Assembly: GCF_910592395.1 (NCBI RefSeq)
Contig: NC_088316.1
Span: 10,294,001 to 10,358,000 of the forward strand
Length of the DNA: 64,000 bases
From: Lineus longissimus
Taxonomy: Eukaryota > Nemertea > Pilidiophora > Heteronemertea > Lineidae
Reading direction: 5' to 3'
The notes under the pieces were generated by a model. It was given only the letters and a program-made list of their open reading frames with translations. It had not been told where the DNA came from and made no database searches. The position numbers were made by a program, and so were the translations under genes. Shown piece by piece: positions 26,024-63,128 of this stretch. Position 1 is the stretch's first letter; each line of letters begins with the position of its first letter.

Positions 26024-26552
26024 ATGGGAGCACTGTTCTGGATTGCCAGTCACTTGCTGAGGTCCTCGACAAGGCTGCCATCATTTCACAACTACATTGC
26101 CATAGTTTGCCACCAACACCTTCATCTTCACAGACCAGTTAAACCAGGTTTATTGCTGCAGTCCCAACAAAATATGTGCCATCGAGGGTTAAAAGACAAA
26201 AGTTCAAATCTCCAAATGGCACATCTTCGCAATGTCCATTTCAAAAGATCTCCAGAGCTATTGGTCACGTTAGGGAACATTGACTTGTTGACAAGTACTG
26301 GTGCTTTCCATTCAGACAACAGCATTCTTGTACGAACTTCAAAATCCTGTAGGAGTGCATCAGTTGAACAAAGAATGCTTTTTCATGGCTTGTGCAGTCC
26401 TAGACATCATGGATTGATTTGTAATAATCTGAGGACTCCGTTGTCGCTTCAAAGTCGTACGACATCATTATTTTCTTTGACGAGGATACTTGATGCTGCA
26501 CCTGTTTGTGTCCAGCCATATCTGCGCCTCGTACGCTTTGACAGGCCTATAG
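26024..26552 (+). CDS. COQ2 exon 1: targeting peptide and entry to UbiA fold
   Basis: ATG at 26024 opens 176 codons, ending in [19 protein letters not shown] with the donor ATAG|GTAAGA at 26553. The N-terminus [20 protein letters not shown] is hydrophobic and basic, as expected for import. Most of the exon (residues 20-155) is not conserved; only the last about 20 residues match COQ2 strongly. Start chosen as the first ATG of the open frame. Confidence 0.9.
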
Positions 26553-44500: not shown

Positions 44501-47500
44501 CCTTGCCTATTATTGCTGCTGAGGTAATAAATTTAGTCACATCTTCAAACAACTGGTCCCCTCCCTCTGTCCAACCTATAAGTAATCCTATCGTACTTAC
44601 TTGTATGACATATGGCTTCATTTCCCAGGTTTGAGTGTTAGTATTATCGATGATGATGGGGTTGACACCACCCTTCATTTTTTCTAGAGCACGCTTTTGA
44701 TTCCATTGATGTGCATCTCCTATCTTCTCTTTTCTGAATAGGTAACGGCCATTTTTGGTGAAGTAATCATCCGTAGAGAGAATCACACCACTAAACTTGA
44801 GCTGGCTGAAACACAATTTGTAAATGAATATGATCCTTTTTAGCATATTGGGGAACCAGGAAAAAGCTTATGATTTGATGTCAAAGTATTAGTCTTGGAA
44901 TGTTGCTTTTACCCTGGCTGACACATTGCAAACAGCACTGCCATTGTTAATGATAAAACCCATAAATCTGATGCGCTTGACTAAAATGCTTGGAAAACCA
45001 CTGGAAAGTCAATCATGAGTCAAGATGAAGTCGAAGGGAGGAACTAGCAACATGTGGCGTTTTTTATTCCTCGGGCAGTAAACGGTGCGTCAATTGGCAC
45101 GTTTCAATTAGAATTTGCTTTTCAAAAAATTGGTGTTGTACATTTCCTCAATGTCAAAGTCACAATGAAGTTGGCATGTTATGCTGTACTCTTAAGCCCG
45201 CAGCACACTAGCCGCCAACTTCGGCGTTCACAGGCGTTTTTTGCCGCAAGAGTCCTGAACGCCTGAAAAATCCCTAGTCTGCTACAAACGGCGTCGGCGA
45301 ACGCGACTTGCTGCAACTAAACGCCAAATATCTAACATGTTTGATTTTTGACGCGTGTCGTCGCCTTTGAACGCAAGAAGAAGCCAGGTGTGCTACGGAT
45401 GGCCGCCTGACTTGGCGTCGGCGGCGAGGCTATGGCCAATCAGCTGGCGTCTTGATGTCACATGATTTGAAAATGGCAGCCTAAAGTGGCGGAAAAGGCG
45501 CTACTGGATGCCAATTCTGGGCAGGTGTGCTCTGACCGGGATCCACTGGCTGCCAACTATGGCGTCGAGAGGCGTTGGCCGAACGTTTCTTGTCGCCAAA
45601 GTTGGCGGCTAGTGTGCTACGGGCTTTAGAAATAACGTTTTTTAGGTTTCGAAGAACTTAGGGTTTTTTTAGCGAGCACAAATTTACTGCCTGTTTTTCT
45701 TGAGCGAAAAAATCTTTATTTCCAAGAGTCAGATAGTAGTTGTTACTATTAGATAGAAATGAGGAAGAGGAAATGACGTCAGAGGGCGACACTTCCTTGG
45801 GCATAAGTAGCAAGGTAGTCTTAACTTCCCAAAAAGTAATCAATATAAACTCGTCGTGGCTGCTATTGTTGAATTTGTATTGAATATATTTACGTTGACT
45901 GTTTTGCGCTAACTCCCTTACATGATGATGAGCCTTTTGGTTATCCATTTTTGCATTGCCTTTTTAAGACTGTTTTTTTACAGTTTGATCACTGCTGGTG
46001 ATTGGATTCTCGCAATGATTTCTTGGAAATAGAACCCAATCTCAGGTGGCTTTTTAGCTCAGCTGACGAAGGTCAACAGAGCTGGTTAAATAAAGATTCA
46101 GAATGGCGTCTGTCCCTCCACCATGACCGACAGAAGAACTATCATCAGCTTACAGGGGTGGCACAAGTCACCATCTTCAGAATTAGAGGCGGGCATAACA
46201 GGATGCAGTGCCACCTATTCGACAAATACAAACTAGGAGACACCGACCAATGCTCTTGCGATATGGGACCGATGACCCATGTCCTATCGTACTGCCCTCT
46301 GCACAAAGCCCACAGACAAGATATCTGGCCAAATGGTGCTACATGCAGGATCAACTGTATGGAGACTTGGTGGAATTGCAGAGGACGACCAAGTACATCC
46401 GACGAACAGAATTGACTGTATGAGGTGAGCGTCAAGAAGAAGAAGAACTGGAAATTGCATGTACATGTATACACTGTAGGTCTAAAATGAAAAATAAAAG
46501 AGGTTGAAAATAATTGAAGTTGAGATACATTCTCAACTTCCTTGGCAAAAAAGATTCCTCGAAACGAATCCTGGCGGAAATCCTGCTGATTAATGGAACA
46601 TAATGGATTAGTGGATTAATAGATTAGTGGACCAAAGAAGAACAGTGGCAATGTAATGATTTTTCAAGTGTTTTTTCGCCCCAAATAAATACAAATGAAC
46701 CGTAGAGATTTTTCAGGGAAATGAGCATTCATGATCAACAGAGCAAGATTTGTTGTTGTTTTTGTTTGGTTGTTGCTATGAAAATCCTGCCCATCGCCGC
46801 TGTAACTGCTCCTACTATTTTACCAGTCAAACTCGACTGGTAAATGTAAAAGCTTTACATCTTGAAATCAATTCCAATGCCTGTTCCTGGTCTCAGTGAG
46901 TCTATGTTTGTTCATGTCTGCTCTCAACATGATCAAATGAGAATGGATACTATACACCTTGCCTTGATGCATCACTGTGCACTTACAAGGAAATAGATAA
47001 AGTTGAACCACATGTAAATACAATGTATATGTGAATGGACAGCATTCCCCTTTGAAGGTTTTCAGAATCTCAAAAAATTATTCATAAAATCTCGGCCAGG
47101 TGTAGATTTGTGTTGGTCGTAAAACCTTATAGGCCAATGTCATCCATTAAAAATGAAATTCAATTGGAAAATCTATAATTGCACAAATACTCACACAATT
47201 TAAATTTCAATATTGTCGTTGTGTAGATAGATGTACAAATACTATGAAATATTAAGTTTCAGCAAATTCATATGCATGATAATTGCACTACGGCAATGTG
47301 TATAACTGCGTTTCTATTTAACTGGACCACCAGTAATTACGAACGGCGTACCCCTTGAAGGTTTTTTAAATGCTCAAAAGCCTTTATGTCTAAATGGGTA
47401 CCTTGCTAGTGTTGTCTTCCCACTGCCAGGGCAGCCCCGCATCATGATCAGCAACTTGTCACCTTTGTCCAGATGCTGTCTCACCGTCTGTACTTGTGTC

Positions 47501-50500
47501 TCGTCTGCTGGCATTTCCCCAGTTGCTCCTGGGGCTCGTTCACAGCCAGTGTGTTTTCTTTGGGGACCCCTGCGATCTTCTAGGCTAGTTTTCTGAAATT
47601 GCCTATTTAGCTGCACATCTTCATTCTCTTCACTCGAGCGTTGCGATCTGTGTGGTTCATGACGACGCCGATCTGCTTGCGTTGTTGGCTTTCTGGTTAC
47701 ATCAGAATTGAAGCCACGGGGGACAGACATATGTGTAGATTTTGGCTGCTTATTGTAGCTGGAAGATGGTGATTTTCTGCCACGCTGGTTTGTTCTGTGT
47801 CCTTGTTCGTGCCCGTGCGCAGTTGCACCTCTATGATAAGCTGGTTTTGGCCGAACAGATGGCTGCTGGAAGCCTGGGAAAGGTGCTGACTTACCAGTCG
47901 AATTTCCCGGTACAAATTCTACTGCATCCACTGACAACTCAGATTTGTTACTTTTGACAACATCCACAGCTTTGTCTGCTCCATACTTATCCCTGATTTC
48001 CACTTTATCTTGCCTTTTATCCATGCTGCATTAATTTGTTATCCTCTGGTCCTTTGTATTTGCTATCTGCAGCAACTCCATAGCGTCCTCTCCTTGCTTT
48101 TAGAGTTGCATGTTGCTAGGGTCAGTGTTTAAACAGGCATACCATATACAAACAGATCGATAGCACTGCTTTTTTATGGAATTATTTCCCGATAATATCA
48201 CTGCACCATGACCATTATAATGATATCAATTTTGTGGATATTTTCTATGCATGCATGTCATGTGAACCAGCCGAGTGAATATGACAGACTATGAAGTGTT
48301 TATACTATCTACTTGTATGTAGGTCGTGCTATAATATATGTCGATGTCATTTTTTTAAAAATTCCTGATCAATGGCCCTATCAATGAAATTGCACAAATG
48401 ACAGTGCAGATGTTTTAACTCACACGGGTAAACTTATATCACGTCTTGGCCGAACTTGCGTCTGTCGTCCGCTATCCGGTTTCATCTTTGTCTGTCAACA
48501 ATGGTGGCACGTTTGCTCACCGCTATTTCTAGAAAGTTGAAACTTTGGTGTGTGGATGTTTTATGACAGCATGACTAGACGTACAAAAGATCATCACGAT
48601 TTAACCTACTTTCTGTTTGGGTTCTAGATGGCCATCTCCACCCTGGAGAATCGTTCCCCAGACTGTCGAGAATCATGTGGGCCTTTTCAATAAAGCTGGA
48701 AAAACTGTGTTTTGGAGTCTTTCAACGTAATGTTGTTGTGTTCATCTGGTTTAAGGTTCTTCAAGCATGATTTGCATCAAATATATAGAAATGCACCACC
48801 GGTTTGTCCTATGGATAGCCAACAAATTGGAAAATATGCATGGATTCATTTTGTGCATGGATTCAATTTAGTTGGAAATTTAGTCATATTGCCCATATAC
48901 CAACTAGATGGACACAGTATATTCTAGAAAATTTACCAATGAGCGCACATTGTGGCTGTTTTTTCTTCTGAGGCAGCCATTCTCCCCAGGCCTCAAGTAG
49001 CACTATCCAGGGCAGGCTGCTGGGTAAGTGGGAAGGCGTGATAAGATTTTTGGCAGTCTGGGGAATTGATTCTCCAGGATGATATCTCAGGCACGCTGAT
49101 AGCAAGACTCATGAAATTTTTACTGAGGGTACTTTTGATGTGACTACATGAAATAATTTCCCGGGTTTTTGATTTGACCTACTTCTCTAGGTCACAGAGG
49201 TCAAAATCGAACATTTTACCAAAGGAGGTAAGTTTTGTCACTATTTTTAGCTCAGCTGACAAAGTCAGCGGAGCTAGTCAAATAGCTATTCGATTGGTGT
49301 CCGTCCTTCCATCCATCCAGCCATCTGTAGACAAAGTTGGGCATTTTGTAATCATACAACCGAGGCACTTCAAATCTAGTCTTGCTTATAAACACCGCAG
49401 AAAATGTTGCTTACGGAAAAAAATTTGGGCGATTCGACTCAAATTCAGCTCCCCAGGGGGCAAAATGCGTAAATGAAAAAACAATTTTTTGACGCTCTAT
49501 TCCAGCAGATAAAAGCTTGAAATAAAGTTGAAAAGGTCTTCATGATACAGAAGTTTTGATATAAAATAGATTAGTGTCGATTTATATCACCAGTTGGCGG
49601 TAGTGAGCAAAACTGTTGTTTGACCCCGGATGACCCCGCTTTAAATTTCCCGCCGAGGTTACCTGGAGAACTATCATCAAGAAAATGGCGGCGACCTTTT
49701 TATTTCTACCGGAGCGATGATTTGTAAGTGACAAATTTTCTTTTTTAAGCCTTTACGGTAATGTATTTTGGTACGAAACTTCACACGTTTATAGAAAAGA
49801 TCAACGAGAATGTGTTCAAATGCCCTCATAACGATGAGTTCAACGGAATTTGGTCAAAACAACCTTCGAATGGAGTCAACTTTCTTTGCAAAATTGAAGC
49901 GACGACTTCATCATTATTTATCGTAATTTATGCAGATCTGAGTCCAGCTGATGGGTGATGTTCTGATTTGTGTTCAAACTATTGGAAACTTCGGAAATTA
50001 GTTCTATTAATTCTACTATTCTGCAGGAGTATATTATAGCCATTGATGTTGACAGCTAAAAGCACGAAAACTTTGTTGTTGATCGTCGGGGCGGATTGAT
50101 ATGTGGTTGTGCGTCCAAGGCGATTAGGTCATTCAGTTAGTTTGAGAAAGATCATGATTGTTGTGTTATCATAACCGGAAAATAAGTTGAAGTTATTATT
50201 AGTACTACGATTCTTACATGAGTAAAAAGTAGACGTTTTAAGCAACACAATAATGTTACTCCCGTAAAAAAACTGTCAATTCTCCTTACCACAGAAGTTA
50301 CAGTGTTAAGTTATGCAGGGGCTTAATCAATTACCTGCACTCCCTGTGGGGTGAATAACATTACCTTTTGAACAGCTGGCTGTAGGGGGATGATTGGAAC
50401 AGCCGGTAACCTGCTGAACCCAGGTTAATGTTTTTTTCAATCCACGATTGCAGGTCACCTGATTTTCGAGATTTCGCGGGAAATGAAATTGTAAACAAAC

Positions 50501-53500
50501 GCATGTGTGCAGTTCAAATGTAAACCAAAATGTATTTTTGGTACTTTTGGTATTGACATTGCCTCATCATCTCTATCGGACCAATTGATATACTTTTATA
50601 TGCACGCATACATCACGCCATTTCAGGGTCCGAGTCTGTGGACAATTGGTTTGATTAATTTGTCTCTTCGATATTGCTCCTTTATTGCATTAGATTTTCA
50701 TCGCAATTCAATCTATTCAAGATGTAGCCAATTTGAACCTGCTGCGCCAAGGATAGATCGACTCACTAGGGATAGGCAGTAGAGCACAATGTCATGACCC
50801 TTTGTATTGTAAATTCCAACCACCTGCAGGACAGGTCAATTTCTCTCAATAAAATTAATTTTGTTGACTCCTGTAATCTTTACCTTATTAAAAAAAAGAC
50901 AGTGGTGTTAGTCCCAAACTGGTCATTTCTATTTATTTTGACCTCTGTTAAATCAGGATACCTCTCGATTACAGACAGCATTTTGTATCCTTGTGCTGTG
51001 CAACCCAGCCTGGACATACCACAGTTGTCCATGGAGAAGTCTCATCCTCTCTGACACTTCTTTTCTGTAAAGCTACCGATACAACATACTGAACTAGGGA
51101 TATATTCCGTTGCCTCCTGTAATATTTACATACCATGGCTGATTAGTTCAATCATATTTCATCCAGCTGGCAGCTCTGCATTGGAAATTTTAGTGGTATA
51201 ACGTGTTCTCTTGACCTTCAAACAGTAGTATAAAGCCGATATTTACTACTTTACACCCTCAGTCCTATGTTATTAGGTCATCCAGCTGAGCGCCAGGCCC
51301 TTGGGCCTCTTGTTCTTCAAGTTTGATATGAAGAACTATACCGTATACCGCATATCATACACACTGTACGATAGGAAGAAAATCTAACCTTGCTAGTGTT
51401 GATTTGCCACTGCCAGGGCAGCCCCGCATCATGATCAGCACCTTGTCACCTTTGTCCAGATGCTGTCTCACTGTCTGTAATTGGCAGTAGTTTGCTGATA
51501 ATTCCTGGGATCTCAAGTTTCTTTTTTCTCTCTGCTGACAACTTGAAGTCTCCTGGGCTGATTTGGATGAAGATGTTGGTCCTCGTTCACTGCGATGGCA
51601 TTTCTTGGCTAATTTTGAAAACAGTCCACTGCTCTCCTTTGTATCATGTCCTGGTCCCTGACCCCTGAGTTGAGCTATCTTTTCATCACTGTGATAAAAC
51701 TCTTGCTGTTGGAAGCCTGGCATATCAGCAATTGAAAAAAAATTATATGGATCTGGCGGTGACCCCAAGGGTGGTCCAGTTACGCCACCTGGAATTATTT
51801 TTGGAGCGAAAAAGGCTGGCATCTTCCATTGCAGATCACTTGAATTTAACAAGTTGAGCTTGGGTAGTGGGAATATGCCACGAGGTGCTGACAAATCAGA
51901 ATGTTGACAAATTGCTCTCCGCAATTCTTCAACATCGGCTGACAATTTGGGTTCACTTTTGACATCATCACCATCATTCATCAACACCACAGCTTTGTCT
52001 GCTCCAGACTCGTCCCTGGGGGGTACTTTGTCTTGACGTCTATCCATGTTGTCGGTCACAATGAAATAGTATATCCTTATATAATGTCCTTCGGCATCTG
52101 CAACAAGCTCCCAGAGTGTCCGCTCCGTTTAGAATTGATTGTTGTTTGAGTCAGTGTTACATAGGCATACCTCATATGAAACAAAGTGATTGCACCCATT
52201 CTCTGTGGTGGATTCCGAGCAAAACAATATCCCTGTGCAATCACGGTCAAATATATTTTTTGATGGATATCATCTAAATGTCATACGAACCATCAGTGCT
52301 CTGATTTTGATTCGACAAAATATGATGCATTGTTTACAATGTATCGTCATATTTCTATATCATCATAACAGTTCTACTGTCAGCACGATTGCCCAATTGA
52401 CAATCCAAATATCCTGACTTATACTCAAGCATCAACATTAATTTTTCGATGACAGAATGCATAGGCCTACTGTTTTGCTTATTGCAGAATTGATGCCCTG
52501 GTCTTAGTATCCAAAGCCAAAGGGCATCGATCTTGTTGCACAAAATGTTCAATCTATTCACTGCAAAATTTACATGTTCCCCCTAGCCATGGTAGGTTTT
52601 GGCAGTGATTTTTATGGTAGATGTACATATTTAGTATAGATGAACGCTGTGACGTTGTTATCAACTTCAAATTTGAGCTGTAACCAGTTTTCTACACCAT
52701 ATTGTTATTTCAGGATTTTGATGAAAGACACTTTGTGTTTGAGGGAGCTGTCTGTCAGACATGAATGTTGGGACACAAGTTCAAAATGTTATTATCATGA
52801 TGATGTTGTAATTGCATTGTATATATATATCATTTAATTCTATCTCTTGCCTTTATTTAACAGATATCACCTATCCTGAAGTCGATCCTTATCTGCCTGC
52901 TCTTGTTCTTTGAGCAAAAGGCATCAGCTGTTTTCAGATGTAACCATTCTGCTTCTCCAACTTTGTGAAAATAATCAAAAAGGCATTCGTGCTGCTCTTC
53001 TCCAGGCTGACAGGCCTCTAAAGGATCATTGACAGCCTCTGCTGATATTTCAGGTTGCAAGAACCAGAGACCGTCCCCTTGCATGTGGACAGATCACCAG
53101 ATTTCAGGCACTTGTCTTTCTGGGTGGGCAGCTCTCCTTGGCGTTGATGGTCCTGCTTCAGCTCAACATGTACAGGTAATGATGCATTTCTCCCTCTCTC
53201 CCCAAGAAATCGAGGTGCTCTTATCTTCTGAAGTTTGGAATCAATAAATAACACATTTTTGGTGAGCAAGATAAGGTCAATTACATGCACATGTTTGCGA
53301 AGGTCATGGCTTTGCCTAAAGTGCCAAGATCGTGCGGCTGCAACCTAAACTTTTAAAGATATTTTAGTTCCTCCAGACGACACTAGGTGTTCTCAGCTAC
53401 TCGAATGTGTTGGTTTTTCTGGCCTGGGTCGTCCAAATTGAATATTTTTTTCGACTGAGAGGGTGGGGTGGGATCTGCCACCCCTCATTTTAGGTGAATA

Positions 53501-56500
53501 ATGGTGAAAATTGGCCAAAAATAGTCCCCCTTAAAAATTTGTAGAAAATAATCCCAATATGCCCCTACTTATTACTGTTGTTTTATTAAAACTAGCGGTA
53601 AAGACGAAGGTTTAGAAGAATTTTGTTGAGTTTATCTCAGTTATATCCTTGGCACTGAAAGAGTTAAACACGTTAATCATTAGTCACAGCTTACTACGAC
53701 CAGTGACCTGGGATCATCATCTGGGCCCGACTGTCTGTTGCAGGTACCTGCGATTTAAATCCTTCGTTTGCTGAGGACTGTCGCTCATTTGTGGGAGACC
53801 ATGTGATGAGTGCTCTGATCACGATTGCAGATTGCCACAATTTAAATCTCTCCACTGCTTGGCAGTTAAGAATCGTTCTTGCTGTGACCTGCTATGAAGT
53901 CAAATCTGGCAATGACAAATTTTACGCTCAGACAAGTTACTTTTTCATCCCAACTTTTAAATTTGCTTGCATCTGCCGAGGAAACAGGAAAATCAATGGA
54001 ATCCGTCATGGGTTTATGGAGCTCAATAGTGGTGATGCAAACACATGAGGGTCGGGATGGTGTCTGGGGCACTTCATAAATGTTCAAAATCTTTCTCTTC
54101 AGTATTATTCTTGGTGCAAGCTCGTTGGGTCTCGTGATTGTCTACCCATTGATGAAGAGGCTGACCTATTGGCCTCAGTTAGTTCTGGGTGAGTATATGA
54201 TTTGACATGGCTGCAAAATACTCTCACTCATGTGAAGAGGTTTATGATGAAATGAGCCCTCGGAGCCATATTGGGTTAGGTTAATCTTTGTAAATTTTGA
54301 CTTGGGTGTATTAAAAATGAATGGAGAAATGTTATATCTTTCAGTGCAATACTGGTACTGTACAGATTGACATTATGTAAATGCATGAAATTTCATGAAA
54401 CATCATCTATGAGATTTGTGGGCAATTTAAAGACCTTCCCTGCCATTGCTCTGAGGGGCTCAAATAATGTAGGGTTGCTTGCCAAATTCAATGTTATGGA
54501 CATATCGAAGTATTGTAGAGGACTTATATGTCTGGTTCACAATTACCATCTTGGTCTGAATTTTCATAATGTGAGTTTGAGTCTTCTCATTAATTCAGTG
54601 GGCCTGAGGAGTAAATAGGTTATTCGAGGAGCCTGTACTGACAAATAAATTCCGTCAATAAAAAAAATTCTTGTCCTCGTCATTGATATCTATACAGCCT
54701 TGCATCCATACAAAGTCGCTAAGCGTCACATGTCTCGTCATAATTGATTTAAAGGCGAGAATGAAGTTCTGTGCTTTTGATGTAATTCGCCTGAGCCGTG
54801 ATGCAAGTGATGCGGTCCTTGTATTCAAGATTATATTACCAGTAGGAGAGCCATCGATGAAGTCATAGCCTGTGTCATAACATCACTCCCATTGTCATGA
54901 TGGCATCTTTATATCATTTGGAAAAATGAGTATGACACATTTGAACATTTGAACTTGTTCACAACACATAAAGTTGTTTCAATAAATTGTCTTGTGAGAG
55001 AGAATAGAATGGATTGTCCAAAATGGGAAGTGACGTTACTGTGTACATAAACTCCCTCTGTTGTGGGTCATGGATGTTATGTATGCACCTCCTTTACATA
55101 TCCTTCGCACCAACTCTGTTTTGATGGGTAGCATATCGAGAACATTAGTATCTTTGGAATCTCTTAACACCTTTGATGCCCAATGATGTAAATCTACGTC
55201 TTTAACGCCCAACTGTTTGCTGCCCACTGACGTAGATCTACGTCGTTGGACAGGGGTCCCATCAACTGTGACAGTCGTCTTTTTGAAACCATTATGATAT
55301 AAACTACATGAGTTCCACCTGATTAGCTAACCCTGAACCAAAGGAATTTCCTTAGGGATCACGTCCAAAGTCTGCACGCGATATTCGCCGGCGAAATTCA
55401 CTCTACAGTATTTCGCCTGCGAAATCTGTCCGAAAATCGACCGGCGAATGTGAGGCGATAATATGAAATTGCCGGTATGTCAGATGCGAAATTCGCCCAC
55501 AATCGCGCCTATTCTTCAATTTCGCCCCAAAAATCGCTCCAGGCGATAATGGAGCGATTTTACAAAATTGGTGGCTCTTGCATGCTTGTCCGATTTTCGG
55601 AACGATTTCTCAACGACTTTCGCTTACGTTTATGGCCACAAAATTTTATTTTGATGACTTTATACCCGACTTTGTGTGTTGTGTACAAAAGAATCTATTC
55701 AACAACGTTGGTTTCATCATCGGGTGATTTTGATAGCTTCCCGAAAAAAAGACGATTTTTTCACCTTTGCTAGGGAAAGACATTTACAGTGGTTGCAGAA
55801 ATACTGTAGTTGCTGAAGGGTTTAGTATGTAGTTTCAGCTTAGACTAGAGACTATATTTTGAAATCCTGCTTGTCGCTTAACACATTCGAATTATGACCC
55901 GGATGAAAATATTTATCAAATTCTTGCAATGGCTGTTAATGGAATTTGGACAATAGTTGTCTATGCCCCCTGTTGGTGTATTATTGAACTATTTTCCCTT
56001 CCCAACAGGTATAACCCTAAATTGGGGTGTCCTCCTCGCTTGGTCTGCCATCACAGGTTCCGTCGACCTGTGCGGGTTAACCCTGTACATTTCAGCAGTT
56101 GCATGGTCTATGATCTACGACACGATCTATTCGCATCAAGTGAGTAGCCGTGGTAACTGTTGTCAGGGTAACCGTAGGTCACAAGCTATTTTATGTCGCT
56201 TTTGCTTTTTAAGATCAGATGCAAGATTTAAACCAGGGTTCTTGGTTCTTCAGTCTTCTGGCAATTTTCTAGTAAGATTTCTAGTTTAATGAAGTGTAAG
56301 CTACATGAAACACATGTGACAAAGTTCAAAAAAATACTGAATTCCCTTTCGAAAATTTTTGATATTTTTTCAGCCAATACCAATATGCACACCTTACATG
56401 TAGACGTTTTTCAGGGAAAGGAAAACAATTTAGAGGCATTTCAGAACCTTGAATAATTTCTCAAAAAAATCTATATTGTGTCTCAGGGGTGCATATTCAT

Positions 56501-59500
56501 GTAGGTCGAAGTTTCGAATCCATTGTGATATTGGGAACTTGTTACTATCAAAAAATATATTTTGGCGGATTTTTCTTGGCAATGGTTTTATCGTTTGATT
56601 AAATTCAAAATTTTGGTAACTATGAATATGTCATAAAGTGTGAGTCATGTCTGATGACTTGTAGCCAAGACCCTGCACAGATATCCTGCAGTCCCTTGTT
56701 AATAATTCACTATCCTGTGTCAAGATTTTACCTTGCTTTGCTGACCGTGGTTATAGATAGATGTCGCATTTACCGCTTCAAACCGCACCCATATCTTTAT
56801 CCTTGCTTTCTTGGTTGCGCTCGTGCGTTGCCAAGTTTTATCTCAAATGTTTGCATGTTGTGGAATGAAAGATGTCTTGGATCATTTCATCGACGGTGTC
56901 ATCTTAAGCTGTTCAGTACAGGCTCCTTTATCAACTCACACTCATTCTGTTTGACCTAACTTGAGGCTTTTGTTTCATCAAGCTGCCTACTCATTTGTAC
57001 TTTCACAGACTGGAGAAATCATAATTGATAATGTTCTCCAAAGGCAACATCCAATCAAGCTGGGATGTTTGGCCTCAGACATTTATCATGTTTATGACTT
57101 TAATACAGGATGTTGCAGTTCCCAACTTAAAGGGGACCTGAAATGGTTTTATTGAATTTTAACTTGCGGTATAAATAATAGGGCATAACATAAAAAAGCG
57201 TGAAAGCCGCATAAAAATCAAACTACTCATCTTAACGTAAAAGCAGTATGTAATTCAAACATTCCAGGTGGTGCAGGAAGAACAAATTGATGATGTACAT
57301 TGTGCTGTATTGAAATAAAGTTTTGATAGTTTCATGCTTATATCTTAATTACCTTGCCACAGGTATGAGCTGAGTGAACATGTTAATGTACACATTTAAA
57401 ATTTAGGCATGAAATTATAGTATAAACAACAATGTACATCATCAGTTTGTTCTTCCTGCACCACCTGGAATGTTTGAATTTTATACCTGCCATTACTAGA
57501 AGATGGGTAGTTCGATATTTATGCGGTTTTCACCACTGTGTTTTTAGCTCACCTCTTAGCAGAGGTGAGCTTATCCCATACCGTGGCGTCCGTCGTCCGT
57601 CGTCGTCGTCGTCCGTCGTCCGTTAGCAGGGCACGTTTCGTAACTGTTAGAGCTATTGAGTTGAAACTTGGTACACATGAACCCTTATGTAATGACACCT
57701 TGGAGACCAAGTTTCGGTCCGATTCGTTTCATGGTTTGGCCACCAGGGGGCCAAACGTTAAAAGTGAAAATATGCAATATCTCCCTTAATAGTAGTCGGG
57801 AAATTTTGAAAAAAATATGGTAGGTACTTCTAGCAAAGGTGCATCATATATCCTCCGGGTTTTTGATTTGACCTCCTTTTCAAGGTCACAGAGGTCAAAT
57901 GGTGTAAATTGGCCGTTAGGATGAAACGATGGCACGTTTCTAAACTGCAATGACTATTGATACCAAATTTGGTACACATTTACCCCTTAGTCAGGTGATC
58001 TCAGGGACCGAAGTTTGGTCCAATATGATTCACCACTTGACCACCAGGGGGCAAAATCCAAAAACCTTAAAAATGTGATTATTCCTTAACTTCTTGCCCG
58101 ATTGCCACCAATTTGATATCATGGGTACATCTAACCACCATACAGTATATGTCACACAGGTTTTTAATTTGACCTTCTTGTCAAGGTCACAGAGGTCAAA
58201 TGGCGTAAATTCGCCGTCAGGCCGTAACTATGGCACGTTTCTTAACTGCAATGACTATTGATCACAAATTAAGTACACATGTACCCCTTGGTCAGGTGAT
58301 CTTAGGTACCGAAGTTTGGTGCGATCTGATTTGCCGTTTGGCCTCCAGGGAGGTGGCCAAATCCTAAATTCTTCAAAATGCCATTATTCCTAGTAATGAC
58401 TTGCCCGATTGGCACCAATTATATATCATAGGTACATCTAATTCTAACAACCATTCAATGTGTCACCCGGGTCTTCTTTGATTTGACCTACTTTTCAAGG
58501 TCACAGAGGTCGAATGTACTGTAAATTGGCCATTTTGGGGAAATTGTAATTGCTTGGACCTACATCAAACCTAACACTACATGACACAATACCATGCTCT
58601 TTATCCATCTTTCCTCCACATGAGGTGAGCACAATGGCCCTGGCCATTTCATTTATCTTATGCCCTACAATTTTTTCCCTATGTTAAAAAGTGTTGCAGG
58701 TGACCTTTAATAAGAAGCATGAGAAGTGGCTTTACAGAGATTTGTAACGATGGCAAAATTGCCTTTTTCAAGTCTTCTTTCATTCCAGTGCTTACAGTTC
58801 TATTGTGAAGATTTCCAATGCAGGTGGAACATATATTTCCTGAAATTACTAGTTTTCCTTTCAACTCCTTGGTGGGTTGCTTTACTAAACGATAAGAATG
58901 GTGTTGACATTTATTTATGGATGGAACCAATGTTAAAAAAGGTATTTGTGTCACCAAAATGCTTGTGAAATATATGCAGAAATTGCCTGATGAAACTAAA
59001 GGAAGATTCTGCAGGAAAGTTATATGAAACCATCTGCATGTGAAGTCTTAGTCTTCCTGGTAGTGTTGAGCTGATCGTTTAACGGTAATTACAATTCTAG
59101 CCTTTGTTTTCATGCTAGGTATGACTTTCAACTGGGGGTGTTTGCTGGGCTGGTCTGCTGTCCACGGTTCATGCAATTTTGGAATCGTCTTGCCCCTATA
59201 TGTGTCAGGCATTGCATGGACGTTGTTGTATGATACTATATATGCACACCAAGTGAGTAGTCTGCTGTGTTAGATTTTTCTTGTGTTAATTCTTCCTTTG
59301 TCACTTGACTTCATTGCCCACCATTTGGCCAACATCGATATTGTAAATTTTTGAATTTTGCCCAACTTTAGAGGCCTATAACTTGAAAGCGGTAAACCCT
59401 ACTGCTCTGAGAAATAGGTCATTTCCAGTTTTCTGCTTAGGAAAACTGATAGTTTATAATTATATGACATTCCATTTTCGAGATGTAAGCCATTTCAATC

Positions 59501-61450
59501 TGGAAGGCAGATGTTCACTTGTTATGCGGCTTACTTTGACCACTGAAGTCGTGTGACACTGAAATTGCCAAATACAACTTTTCGTGGCAACTAGAAGCAC
59601 TTCTACCGAGGAGGAAGGGGGGTTATGTTTTTAGAGTAAAAAGCTCTGCCAAGGTTGTGATAATCGATTGTGAGTCTAGATCAGTTTGAGTGTCAGTCGC
59701 ACCTATTACTACTCGGTCTCTAGGTGCCAAATGGCGTCTTAAAAAGGGCAAGGGTTAAAGACATCTTGTCGGCCTGAACAGTCTTTTTATGTGAGCTAAT
59801 TCTCCAGGTGTCTGGCTTAAGATATGGTATGTACCAGTACTTCATATTATAATTTCAACGAGCATTTTGATATTGTTTTAAAGCCTTATTTGGCCCAACA
59901 GCTTATTTAAATCCCTGCTCTCCTCCTTGCTTAGCTTTGCTTTTAAAACTGCCATAAACGCTATATTGACCTACAACTGGACTTTTTTGGGCTCACTTGT
60001 ATGGTGAGTCTTTTTGGCTCACCCTAGGGGAGTCTTTACAATACCGCAGTGTCCGTTGTCGTCGTCGGCCGTCCATCGTCGTCGTCTGTATCCTGTTTCA
60101 AAAACCAGTGGCACGTTTCTTAACCGCTAAAGGTATGAACTTGAAACTTTGCACACAGGACCCCCAAGGTCAGGTGACCTCTGACAATGAATTTCGGTCT
60201 GATCTGATTCTTGACTTGACCACCAGGGGGCCAGAAGTGGAAACCTAAAAAGTGTAATATCTCTCTTTTAAGTGACTCATTCAATAACATTTTTATGGTA
60301 GGTTCTCCTGCAGTGTAGCAAGGATACATCACATATCATACAGGTTTTTGATTTGACCTAATTTTCAATTTACATAAATTGGTAGTTTGAGTGTATCTAT
60401 GGCACGTTTCTTAACCGCTAAAGCTAACAACTTGTAATTTAGTACACATGACGCTATAGGTCTGATACCTCCGACACCAAATTTCAGTCTAATATGATTC
60501 TCGACCTGGCCGCCAGGGAGCCAAACTGAAAAGGTAAAAAGTGCAATATTTCGTTTATTAGTGACTTGTTTTCAATAATATTTTTATGGTTGGTGCTCCA
60601 AGCAAGGATACATCACCTGTGATACCGACTTTGATTTGACCTATATACTATACAATAAGTAGCATGTTTCTTAACCAGCATGAACTCCTAACACCAAATA
60701 TCAATACGGTGAGCACAGTGGGCCCTGGCCTTTTCATTTAAGAGATTCACCATGCAAGTTAGCCCAAAAAAGACGACAGTCCCTGTGCTATAAAGGCTCA
60801 ATAGTCACAATTAGTAAGAAACAAAATGTGCCTGAAGTAAAACCATTCTTGACTAATTGAAATCACCGTTATATGGATAGCCAGGAAAAAACGCACCCAA
60901 CATTTTTAGGAGATAATCATCTCAAAGACGTTGCAATAAACTTCCATGAAACTGTACACATTAATGTATAAACCTGTTCTCTAATTTGGCTGAGAATATT
61001 GCATTCACAACGTTAAAACACAATATGTGAGATGAACTTAAGTTTACGCAACAGTCTATGAAATAATTTTGAGGTATTTGAAGTTAAAACTTGGTGCTGT
61101 TTCTTTGCCACTGGATATATTCGGCAAAATATCAGTCAATTATCATTATGATGATAGCTGAGGCAAAAACAAATTCATTTTTCTCTGGAGACTCTCTCTA
61201 TGTATTTACTTTTGATAATGATCAAGTTATATTTTTGCTAAAGACTACTTCCAATTTTCAGGACAAGGAGGATGATTTCCTCATCGGAGTGAAATCCACA
61301 GCTCTGAAATTTGGTGAAGACACAAAGAAATGGCTGACAGGTTTTGCCGGAGTGATGTTGAGTGGACTGACCCTGACTGGAGTAATGTGCAATCAGACAC
61401 TGGCCTATTATGTCGGCTTATGTGCCATTACTGCCAGTTTGACCAATCAG
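26024..61450 (+). CDS. COQ2, 4-hydroxybenzoate polyprenyltransferase, mitochondrial (3' end outside)
   Basis: COQ2 attaches the polyprenyl tail to the aromatic ring, the first committed step of ubiquinone synthesis, in the inner mitochondrial membrane. Coding exons: 26024-26552, 38330-38496, 53054-53175, 54103-54188, then either 56009-56139 or 59119-59252, then 61262-61450. The last exon lies beyond the window. Phases fit throughout (1,0,2,1,0,0); 409 codons are visible with the longer alternative exon. UbiA hallmarks: first Asp motif NDMWDSDID, second motif [13 protein letters not shown] spanning two exons, [22 protein letters not shown] and [17 protein letters not shown], all close to human COQ2. 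The first about 60 residues are basic and poor in acidic residues, fitting a mitochondrial targeting signal. Introns reach 11.8 and 14.6 kb. Confidence 0.96.
28522..28768 (-). repeat. BEL/Pao 3' LTR
   Basis: 247 bp, identical by eye to 35878-36124. In element orientation it is the 3' LTR, preceded by the purine tract AAGGTGGGGAGAA. Confidence 0.93.
30112..35835 (-). CDS. BEL/Pao gag-pol polyprotein (1907 aa, unbroken)
   Basis: A single open frame. Residues ~150-300: DUF1759 gag region ([20 protein letters not shown]). ~390-450: three Cys/His zinc knuckles ([40 protein letters not shown]). ~550: aspartic protease DSGSD. ~850-1050: reverse transcriptase with ADVTKAF and YMDD (near 974). ~1060-1250: peptidase-A17/RNase H region ([15 protein letters not shown]). 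~1475-1505: integrase zinc-binding HAGVTT..CKECVPC. ~1548-1640: integrase core with [12 protein letters not shown] and [12 protein letters not shown]. Then a DUF5641-type C-terminus ([20 protein letters not shown]). Every expected active-site motif is present. Start ATG is about 40 bp inside the 5' LTR, next to the primer-binding site. Confidence 0.95.
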   Translation of the reverse strand: MNTCLAKMPENEAGVPEGRDAVRKSRSAAKGWVTRASNALKRACKDARQPFGKDAVSKVAIESCINDFDRYLVSFEKAQSEVEMTIEDELAQEQDIDQAFAFISEAKQSRHEAQIMLEEIVTRMSKGPKSKDSNDDFDDGASCASNSSMASMGRVRLPKLELPTFSGVITEWQSFWDQFTALVDENESIPEISKFSYLSSLLEGEAKCVIKGLPVTEENYHIASKLLTDRYGRRERIIFTHVQALLNASMPGHGQGGKMVGNRVSALWRLQDELLLHIRSLQALGIEGSEYGFLLTPLILSRLPNDIRMEWARESDGREADLEFLLDFMKREINRRERSETFKVLTKTDNVGTQGHGIDATADMAEDKQRVATASALQSPSVASHSGGNSCGVCGKTHQTEKCWGLLNLPVSERHSKVQSCKLCFRCLGKSHFAKGCIAQCSKCKGRHHAILCNGGGGSGKVNKARQSGSPSVSKTQSGDSKGTGKSSSSDTGVKTPEKSKGQDTGTMKANMHSISAGSSVNSGSRVNTVLQTAKVKIVGRQGCTEATLMFDSGSDRSYITSSMVKRVKPEWVGTEPISYAAFGCNTPSVERQCNIYNVHLSGSHTGSGENISLNVAEVPVICNPLVRPLVPCELLNILGSDIQLADSVSENREITVDILVGLDLYWKLMKPQRFRQVGGLVAQESCFGWVLSGSWSDSGGGVQSVQSGACSVSPQLMCLGNVGDSDLRRFWDLESVGISLTEQETLNPKIDPVLKHFSENVQKNGSRYQVALPWKSETAKGRLLNNEAMAWKRLKQLNRRFDGDPELKQRYDQVFREYESSGFIVEVLAHEMENPNPTFYLPHRPVVREDSLTTKVRPVFDASASGYNGVSLNDCLETGPSLLASLVDILIRFRRWPVAITADVTKAFLQIGVRPEDQDVHRFLWDDGGRVRVMKFVRVPFGNKASPFLLNATIRHHLDSYPPSEVVQELKDNIYMDDFLSGCDEATRGCEVFDEAQEVMGEAELTFAKCTSNNKVLVDKFRSDFGSKHVDSESVKVLGMSWLSREDCFVFEGIPLPPSAELSCTKRVVLSFTARLFDPLGLLSPFIMMAKILFQEIWRLGLGWDEELPPELKLRFISWLDGISVIKQWKIPRCYTSGGPWKGIVGLELHAFGDSSTLGYGACVYLRIPKSDGTYEVSLVFARARVAPVKPVSLPRLELIASLLCARILVFTRSALKLPEDTTYHCYSDSQVALAWIKGDPCRWKSFVANRVGEIQQLTSPSHWSHCPGPENPSDLVTRGLSAKKLITSESWLHGPVWLASSSDSVDLIEEDSELENCDESVSSLLVPVGGEVVKQEPAISQLFDLNNLKSYPRTIRLVALVMRFCHNLRSAACDRRLGQLSQDERSKAQVQLFRLMQDASYHCEIEALRKGKPLPRDSAHKELDPFLDKTGLLRMKGRLKFSELSYDSKHPIILPKGRVSYLLVRFQHFLMKHAGVTTLLTALRSNYWIVGLRQLAKHVCKECVPCRIVEARACNQVMAPLPGFRVKDAPCFAVTGLDHGGPLFCIDFPKKKFYILLFTCAVVRAVHLELTDSLNLPDCILAIRRFAARRGLPSEFHSDNAATFTGADTLLQQYFGPHSPKWNFIAPRSPWWGGFWERLVGSVKRSLRKSLGKKSLTRSELETTLHEVEANVNSRPLTFVGDSLDSPNPLTPSHFLIGRPAGFQVEIAKDSLNNPEVVHAKDLGAREAVRQARLDDFWKVWSDDYLRNLPPVSKKFQASCNVKVGSVVLIREDHVPRMSWPLAVVTETFPGRDGIVRSVRLKTATGFLTRSVQRLHDLEISAPLPNQDSDASETNNVDLNESFSQDLVADLRENLDTDVDTEAVSVVETSTETPSRPSCESDDSVAVAKTTRTGRVVRPRDRLDL
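35857..35874 (-). other. retrotransposon primer-binding site (tRNA-Phe)
   Basis: The + strand reads TCCCGGGTTTCGGCACCA, which is the 3' end of the standard animal tRNA-Phe(GAA) with CCA. The element's RNA therefore pairs with it over all 18 bases. It starts three bases from the 5' LTR. Confidence 0.88.
35878..36124 (-). repeat. BEL/Pao 5' LTR
   Basis: 247 bp, TGTTGGAG..CCCCGAAA on the - strand, matching the 3' LTR throughout. It should contain the element's promoter. Confidence 0.93.
38330..38496 (+). CDS. COQ2 exon 2: first Asp-rich motif
   Basis: Between TCTTTTCAG and AAG|GTGAGG. It encodes [20 protein letters not shown], then [21 protein letters not shown]. The NDxxDxxxD motif binds Mg2+ and the prenyl diphosphate in UbiA enzymes. 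The first two membrane helices start here. All residues of the motif are present. Confidence 0.95.
38536..38671. repeat. small MITE, copy 2
   Basis: Ends AGGTAGAATGGGGTATTTGT and, inverted, ACAAATACCCCATTCCATCT; interior GTTTAATTGTAGCCCCTG and CCTATGATATTGATTGA as in the copy at 17215-17342. It contains a C-run of 14. It sits 40 bp behind the COQ2 exon 2 donor. Confidence 0.8.
39680..40795 (+). mobile_element. pearl-like element, divergent copy with insertions
   Basis: Starts TTTTTAGCTCACCTGTGAGC, has a CGTCGTC run, two core units (GGCACGTTTTGTTACCGCTG; CCACCAGGGGGCCAAAGG), and ends CAGGTGAGC plus the hairpin AAATGGTCCCTGGACCATTT. It has been expanded by a poly-C run with a 12 bp minisatellite (CCCTGACCCTAC, about 40300-40395) and by a non-LTR endonuclease scrap (40626-40730). 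A leftover of another element's 3' end is at 39400-39425. Confidence 0.78.
40626..40730 (+). pseudogene. APE-type endonuclease scrap of a non-LTR retrotransposon
   Basis: Reads [19 protein letters not shown], then [15 protein letters not shown]. The LDLVFTN..SDHKMI pattern is the C-terminal part of the apurinic-type endonuclease of non-LTR retrotransposons, including the catalytic SDH. Only about 35 codons remain. Confidence 0.65.
41394..42354 (+). mobile_element. 961 bp TTAA-flanked element with a small ORF
   Basis: Ends are 23 bp perfect inverted repeats (AGGATAGCTCCTGGAATAAA.. ), flanked by TTAA at 41390-41393 and 42355-42358. TTAA duplication is typical of Kolobok and piggyBac; the AGG start favours Kolobok. 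It contains an acidic open stretch at about 41702-41988 ([20 protein letters not shown], then [17 protein letters not shown]) that looks like the N-terminus of a transposon-borne protein also seen free in invertebrate genomes; the rest is missing. It ends 550 bp from the stop of the nested kinase gene. Confidence 0.8.
42906..43047 (-). CDS. nested kinase, last exon
   Basis: Acceptor TATTTTTAG|GCGCAAC (ag at 43049-43048). It encodes [20 protein letters not shown], then a basic tail rich in Lys/Arg/Ala, and TGA. RN-x-H-x-V and ERYEH are conserved in N4BP2-family kinases. Confidence 0.9.
42906..52059 (-). CDS. N4BP2L-like P-loop kinase gene nested in COQ2 intron 2
   Basis: A complete antisense gene inside the 14.6 kb COQ2 intron. 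Exons on the - strand: first coding exon either 52059-51389 or 48024-47402, then 44805-44601, 43546-43470, 43047-42906 (stop TGA 42908-42906). All introns are GT..AG with matching phases (2,0,2). The spliced product is about 349-365 aa. The kinase core matches N4BP2/N4BP2L1/L2: Walker [13 protein letters not shown], then [73 protein letters not shown] and [14 protein letters not shown]. The human relatives are polynucleotide-kinase-like ATPases of poorly known role. There is no CUE or Smr domain here, so it is of the short N4BP2L kind. Confidence 0.92.
43470..43546 (-). CDS. nested kinase, exon 3
   Basis: 77 bp between TTTATCAG and GCACG|GTAGGT. It encodes [20 protein letters not shown], then LGELAR, corresponding to the family's conserved GY-x-V-x-x-x-EP-x-T-x-W segment. 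Confidence 0.9.
43715..44460 (+). repeat. pearl-like fragment broken by a mariner-type MITE
   Basis: A degenerate pearl-like piece (CGTCGTCGTTGTCGTCGTCC, then GGCACGTTGTGTAAA at about 43745) is interrupted at about 43797-43970 by a short element with ends AACCTCTCTTAAGGACACC and GGTGTCTGCTACGAGAGGTT and internal GTCCTTAATAGAGAGGTGTC. The pearl-like sequence resumes at about 44370 (GAGACCAAATTTCGGTCCG). A 22 bp minisatellite (CCCCTGGGATAGCCTGTCAT) lies at 44255-44345. Confidence 0.6.
44601..44805 (-). CDS. nested kinase, exon 2
   Basis: 205 bp between TGTTTCAG and CAA|GTAAGT. It encodes [20 protein letters not shown], then [20 protein letters not shown] and [19 protein letters not shown]. It holds the DDYF and NTN motifs that define this kinase family and joins the Walker A exon in phase 2. 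Confidence 0.92.
45195..45625. repeat. Harbinger-type MITE (TTA duplication)
   Basis: Inverted ends AGCCCGCAGCACACTAGCCG and CGGCTAGTGTGCTACGGGCT, extended by CCAAC on the inside, flanked by TTA on both sides (45192-45194 and 45626-45628). 431 bp, GC-rich, full of short GGCGTC-type palindromes, no ORF. It lies between kinase exon 2 and the alternative first exon. Confidence 0.8.
46050..46430 (+). pseudogene. non-LTR retrotransposon tail in a truncated repeat
   Basis: A 5' piece of the TTTTTAGCTCAGCTGAC repeat (46050-46120) runs into a + strand frame reading [20 protein letters not shown], then [20 protein letters not shown]. This is the cysteine-bearing C-terminal region of a jockey/CR1-like ORF2. 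It continues in another frame at about 46350 ([20 protein letters not shown]), so a frameshift has broken it. Confidence 0.7.
47402..48024 (-). CDS. nested kinase, alternative first coding exon B
   Basis: ATG at 48024; 207 codons plus two bases to the donor CAAG|GTACCC. It begins [20 protein letters not shown] and ends [30 protein letters not shown]. Both ends closely match exon A (51389-52059); the middle, a basic Ser/Arg/His-rich linker, does not. It carries the Walker A loop, so either exon alone supplies the nucleotide-binding site. There is no frame damage. Confidence 0.85.
48430..49230 (+). repeat. degraded pearl-like fragment
   Basis: Short recognisable pieces: GGTGGCACGTTTGCTCACCG at about 48502 and TTTTGATTTGACCTACTTCT followed by AGGTCACAGAGGTCAAA near 49165-49204. 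The element's own ends are missing. Between 48025 and 48430 nothing is recognised. Confidence 0.5.
49244..51314 (+). mobile_element. TTTTTAGCTCAGCTGAC repeat, copy B (uninterrupted)
   Basis: 2,071 bp from TTTTTAGCTCAGCTGACAAAG to the 3' hairpin CCAGGCCCTTGGGCCT plus CTTGTT. It is highly similar to copy A at 26622-37618. At about 50245-50262 it shows the unoccupied target (AACACAATAATGTTACTCCC) of the BEL/Pao insertion in copy A. It lies in the first intron of the nested kinase gene, between its two alternative first coding exons. Confidence 0.82.
51389..52059 (-). CDS. nested kinase, alternative first coding exon A
   Basis: ATG at 52059 (a second in-frame ATG at 52047 aligns with that of exon B). 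223 codons plus two bases to the donor CAAG|GTTAGA. It begins [20 protein letters not shown] and ends [30 protein letters not shown]. The middle is Pro/Ser-rich and unlike that of exon B apart from a shared PGFQQ. Same exit phase as exon B, so both can splice to exon 2. No frame damage. Confidence 0.86.
53054..53175 (+). CDS. COQ2 exon 3
   Basis: Between GATATTTCAG and ACAG|GTAATG. It encodes [20 protein letters not shown], then [20 protein letters not shown]. The R-x-RP-x-A-x-G motif follows the first Asp motif in all UbiA enzymes; the second half is a membrane helix. Confidence 0.95.
54103..54188 (+). CDS. COQ2 exon 4
   Basis: Between CTCTTCAG and CTGG|GTGAGT. It encodes [20 protein letters not shown], then [10 protein letters not shown]. 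The YP-x-MKR-x-x-x-WPQ motif is characteristic of COQ2. It ends in phase 1, which both alternative exons accept. Confidence 0.95.
56009..56139 (+). CDS. COQ2 alternative exon, e-type (rhodoquinone form)
   Basis: 131 bp between CTTCCCAACAG and CAA|GTGAGT. It encodes [18 protein letters not shown], then [19 protein letters not shown]. Compared with the exon at 59119 it has Leu for Phe at the fourth residue and Ser for Ala just before the final His-Gln. The same pair of changes separates the e from the a exon of C. elegans COQ-2 (from memory residues 204 and 243), where the e form is needed for rhodoquinone. It is one codon shorter than its partner. It lies inside the second Asp-rich motif region that shapes the aromatic pocket. 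Confidence 0.9.
57131..58706. repeat. TTAA-flanked MITE split by a pearl-like element
   Basis: Left end AGGGGACCTGAAATGG after TTAA (57127-57130); right end TGCAGGTGACCT before TTAA (58707-58710). An inner inverted pair (CATTCCAGGTGGTGCAGGAA at about 57260 against TTCCTGCACCACCTGGAATG at about 57452) confirms the palindromic design, and GGGCATAACAT at 57181 is complemented by ATGTTAAAA/TTATGCCC on the far side. The pearl-like copy at 57541-58654 was inserted into it later. The composite fills much of the space between the two alternative COQ2 exons. Confidence 0.75.
57541..58654 (+). mobile_element. pearl-like non-autonomous element, copy 2
   Basis: 1,114 bp, nearly identical over its length to 8307-9452; the main difference is a shorter CGTCGTC microsatellite. 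Same start TTTTTAGCTCACCTCTTAGC and same 3' hairpin AATGGCCCTGGCCATT. No long target duplication here. High identity means recent spread of the family. Confidence 0.85.
59119..59252 (+). CDS. COQ2 alternative exon, a-type (ubiquinone form)
   Basis: 134 bp between TTCATGCTAG and CAA|GTGAGT. It encodes [18 protein letters not shown], then [21 protein letters not shown]. It is very close to the matching part of human COQ2 ([21 protein letters not shown]), including Phe and Ala at the two switch positions. This is the standard form. It has the same phase as the exon at 56009. Confidence 0.93.
59995..60739 (+). mobile_element. pearl-like element, divergent copy
   Basis: Starts near TTTTTTGGGCTCACTTGTAT, carries a CGTCGTCGGCCGTCC run, two cores (GGCACGTTTCTTAACCGCTA twice; CCACCAGGGGGCC), and ends GGTGAGCACAGTGGGCCCTG plus GCCTTTTCATTT. 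It is older than the copies at 8.3 and 57.5 kb judging by divergence. Confidence 0.75.
61262..61450 (+). CDS. COQ2 exon after the alternative pair
   Basis: 63 codons, phase 0 on both sides, between AATTTTCAG and CAG|GTAATT. It begins [20 protein letters not shown], completing the second Asp-rich motif (DTIYAHQ|DKEDD) that binds the second Mg2+. It continues through one membrane helix to ITASLTNQ. The expected final exon (human ..IYTLDIHRPEDCW..) is not found before 64000. Confidence 0.95.
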
Positions 61451-61556
61451 GTAATTATGCAGTTGTTGAAATGGGAGCCGCGGTGGTGTAGTGGCTTGGG
61501 TCTATGGCTGTAGTGGTCATGAGGTCCCTGGTTCATTGTCGGTGTGAGACTTTGGC

Positions 61557-63128
61557 CAGGTCTCTTTGCCTAACATGCCTAACTTCACCCAGATCTTTAA
61601 AATAAGTACTGTTGTCAGGAATGGTCAGGTCTCTTTGCCTAACATGCCTAACTTTACCCAGATCTTTTAAATAAGTACTGTTGTCAGGAATGGTCAGGTC
61701 TCTTAGCCTAAAATGCCTAACTTCACCCAGATCTTTTGAATAAGTACTGTTGTCATGAATGGTCAGGTCTCTTTGCCAGGCATGAGAGTTTTCCGGTAAT
61801 TTCCGGAAATCCGGTTATGAAGTATCGAAAAAGTTGGGTCCCGAGATTCGCGCAGATCTGCAATAAAAATTAGGGGGGTGAGGGGGGTAGAGGTGTTGAC
61901 CTGAACTGAAGAGCCAGCCACAAAACTTTCCGCTCGGCATCAAAATTGTCCGCATTATTCCCGCCAAAGCCAGAGCTAAACCCATCGAATCACCACGTGC
62001 CTTGGCATTCCCAAAGGCAGGCCGCATAATGTATATCGCGCTGTAGCCGTCAGTCTCTGAATCAACCGTGTGACTCGGCCTAGACAATGCTGTACCGCCA
62101 ATGGAACGTATGTGCAAGAGACTAAAATATTGAGCGATGCCGTGTGCTGTCTAAAAATAGCGCTGACCTCATCTTCACCGTACAAACAGCCAACGAACTG
62201 ACGAAACTTGGGGAATCCCCTCACAGCGCAAGGCACTGTGGGATATCCTCGCCTCATGATCGAAATGGCGCCATGAACACTTACAGCTAGTTGGGTGAAT
62301 AATGGTGAATTTTAAAAAGAAACCACGCACGAAATCTTTCTGGGGAGGACCCCCACACAATAAACAGAGCAGAATAACTCTGTAATTTGCCAGAAATTAC
62401 TCCCAATGCATTTGAAATTTGAACTTCTTCAGCGAGTAAGGCACCCCCTTGAACCCTCCCCATCAGAAAAATTTTCAGGTTGTGACCTCTCAGCTCACTG
62501 TCATGCCTGCTTTGCCTAACATGCCTAACTTCATCCAGATCTTTTAAATAAGTACTGTTGTCAGGAATGGTCAGGTCTCTTTGCCTAACATGCCTAACTT
62601 CACCCAGATCTTTTAAATAAGTACTGTTGTCAGGAATGGTCAGGTCTCTTTGCCTAACATGCCTAACTTCACCCAGATCTTTTAAATAAGTACTGTTGTC
62701 AAGAATGGTCAGGTCTCTTTGCCTAACATGCCTAACTTCACCCAGATCTTTTAAATGAGTACTGTTGTCAGGAATGGTCAGGTCTCTTTGCCTAACATGC
62801 CTAACTTCACCCAGATCTTTTAAATGAGTACTGTTGTCAGGAATGGTCAGGTCTCTTTGCCTAACATGCCTAACTTCACCCAGATCTTTTAAATAAGTAC
62901 TGTTGTCAGGAATGGTCAGGTCTCTTTGCCTAACATGCCTAACTTCACCCAGATCTTTTAAATAAGTACTGTTGTCAGGAATGGTCAGGTCTCTTTGCCT
63001 AACATGCCTAACTTCACCCAGATCTTTTAAATAAGTACTGTTGTCAGAAATGGTCAGGTCTCTTTGCCTAACATTCCTAACTTCACCCAGATCTTTTAAA
63101 TGAGTACTGTTGTCAGAAATGGTCAGGT
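61557..63128. repeat. 69 bp minisatellite, interrupted
   Basis: Units of 69 bp (GGTCAGGTCTCTTTGCCTAA, CATGCCTAACTTCACCCAGA, TCTTTTAAATAAGTACTGTT) run at 61557-61776 (about three) and 62510-63128 (about nine), broken by a 733 bp insert. Because 69 is a multiple of three, the array is open on the - strand as a 23-residue repeat; that is a by-product. Confidence 0.9.
61777..62509. mobile_element. 733 bp insert in the minisatellite
   Basis: Ends CAGGCATGAGAG and, inverted, CTGTCATGCCTG; CTTTGC flanks both sides (61771-61776 and 62510-62515). The CAGG start resembles hAT ends, though only 6 bp are duplicated instead of 8. The start contains TTTTCCGGTAATTTCCGG. No intact ORF. Confidence 0.7.

Follow-up and report, generated by a model that had tools for sequence, protein, structure and literature searches.

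Can the bootlace worm Lineus longissimus, a nemertean, redirect its COQ2 enzyme from ubiquinone to rhodoquinone by exchanging a single exon? The question arises from a 64,000-nucleotide stretch of chromosome 9 (C9:10294001-10358000), hereafter the window, in which an earlier note had recognized two copies of one COQ2 exon, about 3 kb apart and between the same neighbours, as the a/e pair of rhodoquinone makers. Such a pair is reported from nematodes, flatworms, annelids and molluscs in the parts of Tan et al. 2020 (PMC7434440) drawn on here, with Phe204 and Ala243 in the a form and Leu204 and Ser243 in the e form. In C. elegans rhodoquinone requires the e form, and in two parasites the e share is raised in the anaerobic stages (same source). 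What the earlier note had stated of exons 6a and 6e, of residues 204 and 243 and of flatworms, annelids and molluscs agrees with these parts of the paper.

Taken jointly, the evidence makes it highly probable that Lineus COQ2 carries a mutually exclusive a/e pair and that its e form, COQ2e, opens the rhodoquinone route. Splice-in of 59119-59252 would yield COQ2a, the ordinary 4-hydroxybenzoate prenyltransferase of ubiquinone synthesis. Splice-in of 56009-56139 would alter the enzyme core and set Leu and Ser into two positions of the active site; the resulting COQ2e would prenylate 3-hydroxyanthranilate, a route to rhodoquinone. At low oxygen, rhodoquinone would then allow complex I to go on working with fumarate reduction. 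The assignment to the a/e pair of rhodoquinone makers is backed by the sequence, the logic of the reading frame, a matching annotated isoform and an exon tree; for Lineus we infer from it regulated splicing, a substrate switch, rhodoquinone and its anaerobic use.

Exon pair, reading frame and gene structure

The e exon (56009-56139) reads G-ITLNWG...YDTIYSHQ and the a exon (59119-59252) reads G-MTFNWG...YDTIYAHQ. Both exons lie where the earlier note placed them, with open frames and canonical ag/GT borders, and their translations bear out Phe and Ala in the downstream copy and Leu and Ser in the upstream one. The spacing of 39 residues between the diagnostic positions, which the earlier note had pointed to, holds for the a exon; the e exon is shorter by one codon, and its spacing is 38. 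The two exons share 56% protein identity. A tblastn search of the window with human COQ2 matched the a exon with an E value of 2.7e-19 and the e exon with 1.9e-13, and found no third copy of the alternative exon in the window.

Both exons are entered in phase 1 and left in phase 0, and their lengths of 131 and 134 nt each leave a remainder of 2 on division by three. Products with neither exon or with both are therefore shifted in frame and stop early: the skip product terminates after VLGQGG, and the product that joins e to a terminates directly after YSHQV. Since skipping and double inclusion both break the frame, the choice of one exon is the sole route to the full enzyme. Lineus thus has two homologous internal exons with shared neighbours and a frame rule, with Phe/Ala in the a exon and Leu/Ser in the e exon. 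Residue for residue, the spliced e product agrees with P0001 over positions 1-408; the NCBI name of P0001 is 4-hydroxybenzoate polyprenyltransferase, mitochondrial-like isoform X2 [Lineus longissimus].

The gene extends further than the earlier note had stated, with exons from 26024 to beyond the end of the window; all coding exons but the last lie inside. Its parts are as follows.

26024-26552, + strand: first coding exon, with the ATG at 26024 and a long N-terminal leader; its match to P0001 is identical
38330-38496, + strand: exon carrying the first Asp-rich motif (NDMWDSDID)
53054-53175, + strand: exon
54103-54188, + strand: exon immediately 5' of the alternative pair, leaving in phase 1
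56009-56139, + strand: e-type alternative exon, 131 nt; its Leu and Ser are L305 and S343 of P0001
56140-59118, + strand: 2,979-nt intron separating the alternative exons; it contains repeats and, at 57200-57533, a stretch able to form a hairpin
59119-59252, + strand: a-type alternative exon, 134 nt, with Phe and Ala at the diagnostic positions
61262-61450, + strand: exon 3' of the alternative pair, entered in phase 0 and opening with the second Asp-rich motif (DKEDD)
about C9:10358273-10358473, + strand: last exon, beyond the window; the match begins 273 bases past its end

A search of the assembly (391,118,348 bases in 30 contigs) found COQ2 at this locus only, and the 8 matches retained from 9 candidates are the 8 exons of this one gene. 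Both isoforms score above the TIGR01474 cut-off and P0001 matches PF01040. The residues N222, D223, D226 and D230 of the first Asp-rich motif and D346 and D350 of the second are invariant across 52 rows, and Lineus COQ2 has the UbiA fold.

The arrangement resembles that of C. elegans coq-2, where exons 6a and 6e are likewise two homologous internal exons whose alternative use swaps the enzyme core, with Phe/Ala versus Leu/Ser at the same positions and an exon length that is no multiple of three. Exons 6a and 6e have 134 nt each, the Lineus e exon 131 nt; and whereas splicing and rhodoquinone have been demonstrated in C. elegans, the Lineus switch is predicted here from gene sequence and annotation. 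In annelids, too, a single COQ2 gene carries a and e exons side by side, as reported for Capitella (Tan et al. 2020) and for Alvinella and siboglinids in the consulted portion of the Alvinella genome paper (PMC12403961). Named annelid sequences were absent from the protein matches listed, so annelid exons lie outside the comparisons below.

The stretch at 57200-57533 in the intron between the two exons holds inverted repeats nested in one another, one of 65 nt (91%) and one of 47 nt (81%), with a predicted long hairpin. It looks like a small mobile element, and the hairpin could be relevant to exon choice. Searched against Rfam with the gathering-score thresholds, the window gave no match.

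Leu and Ser among COQ2 proteins and the origin of the e exon

How specific is the Leu/Ser combination? Among 116 proteins retrieved with the e region of Lineus as query, the two positions were Phe/Ala in 90, Leu/Ser in 21, Phe/Ser in 3 and Tyr/Ala in 2. All 18 named members of the Leu/Ser set of 21 are spiralian or nematode animals, with the phylum judged from the names. An e-like stretch with Leu was present in 56 of 327 fetched proteins, and the 50 with names comprise 26 molluscan, 12 flatworm and 11 nematode records together with Lineus. No named insect or vertebrate among these 327 proteins had Leu/Ser; as the match lists give the best 120 of 2,557 and the best 120 of 7,889, this does not amount to a survey. 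The brachiopod Lingula was represented among the matches listed by an a form only (P0213).

The molluscan e exons (Patella, Mytilus, Pecten and Aplysia records) are like that of Lineus in having Leu/Ser and 44 residues, as do 26 of the 26 named records. The nearest named ones among those printed are 61-66% identical to Lineus e. Of the 13 e rows from molluscs in the tree, 10 have Tyr at the place where Lineus e has Trp (AWSMIYD). Overall, the identity of Lineus e has a median of 57% to other e exons (n=29) and of 53% to a exons (n=20). P0003, a JGI protein of 350 aa, has an e exon 80% identical to Lineus e; it is perhaps from another nemertean in an environmental sample. It grouped with Lineus e at 97/94 in the unmasked tree described below, and the two were no longer a pair once the key residues were masked.

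Tan et al. 2020, as far as the cited parts go, do not decide between an ancestral e exon and several separate origins, and the nemertean exon bears on this question. We built an exon tree from 51 rows (30 e and 21 a, two of the a rows molluscan and two from flatworms), hand-picked from the 327 proteins and aligned over 45 columns. In the unmasked tree all 30 e rows form one group (95/93), and Lineus e clusters with the e exons, apart from its own a exon; the bootstrap is unsettled and two rows are long (Strongyloides e and Toxocara a). Five approximately unbiased (AU) tests were run on the unmasked alignment, with p values uncorrected for their number. A molluscan plus nemertean a+e clade was rejected (p 0.00135), as was a molluscan a+e clade (p 0.0128). 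A Lineus a+e clade (p 0.0514) and a nematode a+e clade (p 0.0614) were both borderline, and a flatworm a+e clade was not rejected (p 0.43).

When the two diagnostic residues were masked, the e label needed 3 changes and a single e group appeared in 0% of 200 bootstrap trees. A single origin of all e exons can thus not be taken as established, for that grouping holds only with the two selected residues in and breaks up without them. In the masked tree, 24 of the 30 e rows stay together at 98/95 (Lineus, 13 molluscs, 8 nematodes and 2 without a species name), and the 6 flatworm e rows fall outside this main group with the a row of the mollusc Elysia among them. The AU test still rejected the molluscan plus nemertean a+e clade (p 0.0196), and did not reject all e rows as one group (p 0.425); constraining flatworm a+e to one clade improved on the unconstrained tree by 5.45 log units (p 0.64).

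That nemertean e groups with molluscan and nematode e despite masking argues for an old single origin in these three. On the sequence comparison, the nemertean e exon and its molluscan counterpart very likely have a common origin, in which the nematode one is probably included, while the flatworm e exons, which remain a separate case, could represent a second origin. The caveat of convergent selection across the 45-residue stretch remains. The broader proposal is that the e exon arose once before the nematode/spiralian split, which would make the COQ2 switch ancient in protostomes or bilaterians, with retention in Nemertea and loss in many other animals, and no separate invention of helminths, annelids and molluscs; to this we give about an even chance. 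The e exon precedes the a exon in all 10 predicted proteins containing both, as in Lineus, these ten having been chosen as sequences from which each of the two exons could be excised; the two paired molluscan gene predictions used (Elysia and Mytilus) have the same order. Exon length was considered as proof of common origin and set aside as weak, since three bacterial rows and the Toxocara e exon also have 44 residues.

Predicted rhodoquinone in Lineus and the rival explanations

Does the rest of the genome point to rhodoquinone? Exons of TDO, the first enzyme of the kynurenine pathway, are present on the same chromosome as COQ2. An ETFDH exon (C9:2394739-2394906, - strand) reads RNVRPSFNTPLGLFGGMFYTG and has Phe in RPSFN, whereas the pig protein (2gmh, the one sequence compared) has Cys. 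Judging from this Cys/Phe difference, the Phe presumably corresponds to C. elegans residue 437. An ETFDH change of this kind is connected with rhodoquinone use in the consulted parts of Lautens et al. 2021 (PMC8659336), and the Lineus Phe may be a second, if weak, mark of it. The same parts tie a Pro in TDO to rhodoquinone users and report a check of the candidate residues in further invertebrates as well. Lineus TDO has this Pro (MTPHDF), but 4hka and 9esd share it, and as a mark it proved uninformative. We take 4hka to be Drosophila TDO. A search for alternative oxidase gave no match and a control query equally gave none, so this result is uninformative as well.

Several observations weigh against the proposed switch. 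Isoform X2 is an annotation, perhaps derived from the same assembly, and so no independent proof of splicing; P0001 represents 3 member sequences, and the a form presumably corresponds to an isoform X1. Ser is paired with Phe in 3 of the 116 matches, and P0307, an e-like protein without a species name, has Leu with Ala. In annelids, the Alvinella genome paper, in its consulted portion, finds the second residue (Ala/Ser) non-diagnostic. The same portion reports that siboglinids keep the e exon, yet TDO, KMO and other kynurenine-pathway genes were undetected in them, so that an e exon by itself is no proof of the pathway.

The siboglinid case lends its weight to the most serious rival, in which the e exon is real and spliced but serves no rhodoquinone synthesis, either because 3-hydroxyanthranilate is missing or because 4-hydroxybenzoate is also prenylated, and the exon is kept for some other use. 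In Lineus, TDO exons are present, the e exon has an open frame and canonical splice sites, and both residues are intact. Placed in the a exon of a C. elegans strain without 6e, these two residues restored survival in cyanide, and were thus sufficient for rhodoquinone-dependent survival (Lautens et al. 2021, in the parts cited). We regard this rival as unlikely. The upstream exon might instead be a degenerating copy of the a exon that is rarely if ever spliced in; in comparisons with other animals its identity to e exons exceeds that to a exons only slightly (57% versus 53%), which would fit such decay. An open frame of 131 nt with ag/GT borders and matching phases does not, nor does the inclusion of the exon in the public isoform X2. 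Lineus e is also nearer to other e exons and clusters with them instead of with its own a exon, and we consider decay scarcely credible.

It is also conceivable that the nemertean e exon was copied locally from the a exon and that its Leu/Ser is convergent with that of molluscs, flatworms and nematodes. The Lineus a+e clade barely escapes rejection (p 0.0514), which leaves this account some room, as do the 45-column alignment and the uncorrected p values. Against it stand the rejection of the molluscan plus nemertean a+e clade, unmasked and masked, with two molluscan a rows in the set, the masked grouping of Lineus e with 23 other e rows, 13 of them molluscan and 8 nematode, and the 44-residue length common to the named molluscan e records. 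Derivation of the Lineus e exon from the a exon within a mollusc-nemertean group is contradicted by the AU tests and is to be rejected on this alignment; a local copy in general appears improbable, more so than an e exon that is spliced without rhodoquinone.

The mutually exclusive a/e pair with a COQ2e that opens the rhodoquinone route therefore remains our preferred reading. By the a/e-exon rule, it is a good inference that Lineus makes rhodoquinone and can run fumarate reduction. The a/e switch itself is already known, and Nemertea adds a phylum to the list. In the parts consulted, Tan et al. 2020 name helminths, annelids and molluscs only as rhodoquinone-making animals, and Nemertea are absent from the phyla named there and in the corresponding parts of Lautens et al. 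2021. A literature search, with most subscription papers outside its reach, found no paper treating nemerteans and rhodoquinone together among those listed (15 of 493 in its broadest form). Finding the complete exon switch in one more phylum gives a direct, testable prediction of rhodoquinone in Lineus.

Other features in the introns and flanks

The first coding intron of COQ2 harbours, on the - strand at 30112-35850, a 1,912-aa open frame with domains of the Pao retrotransposon type (Peptidase_A17, RVT_1, integrase zinc binding, DUF1759 and DUF5641). Within the last intron, arrays of a 69-nt unit occupy 61553-61777 (3.3 copies at 94%) and 62510-63128 (9.0 copies at 98%); an antisense open frame over them drew eight unrelated Pfam matches, apparently spurious. 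Upstream of the first coding exon, at 22528-24162 on the + strand, lies a 544-aa open frame without a Pfam match. In the second coding intron, three - strand frames (44469-44867, 47374-48030 and 51355-52128) gave AAA_33 matches under the cut-off. Two of the three share a near-identical end, and they are perhaps a nested or duplicated gene.

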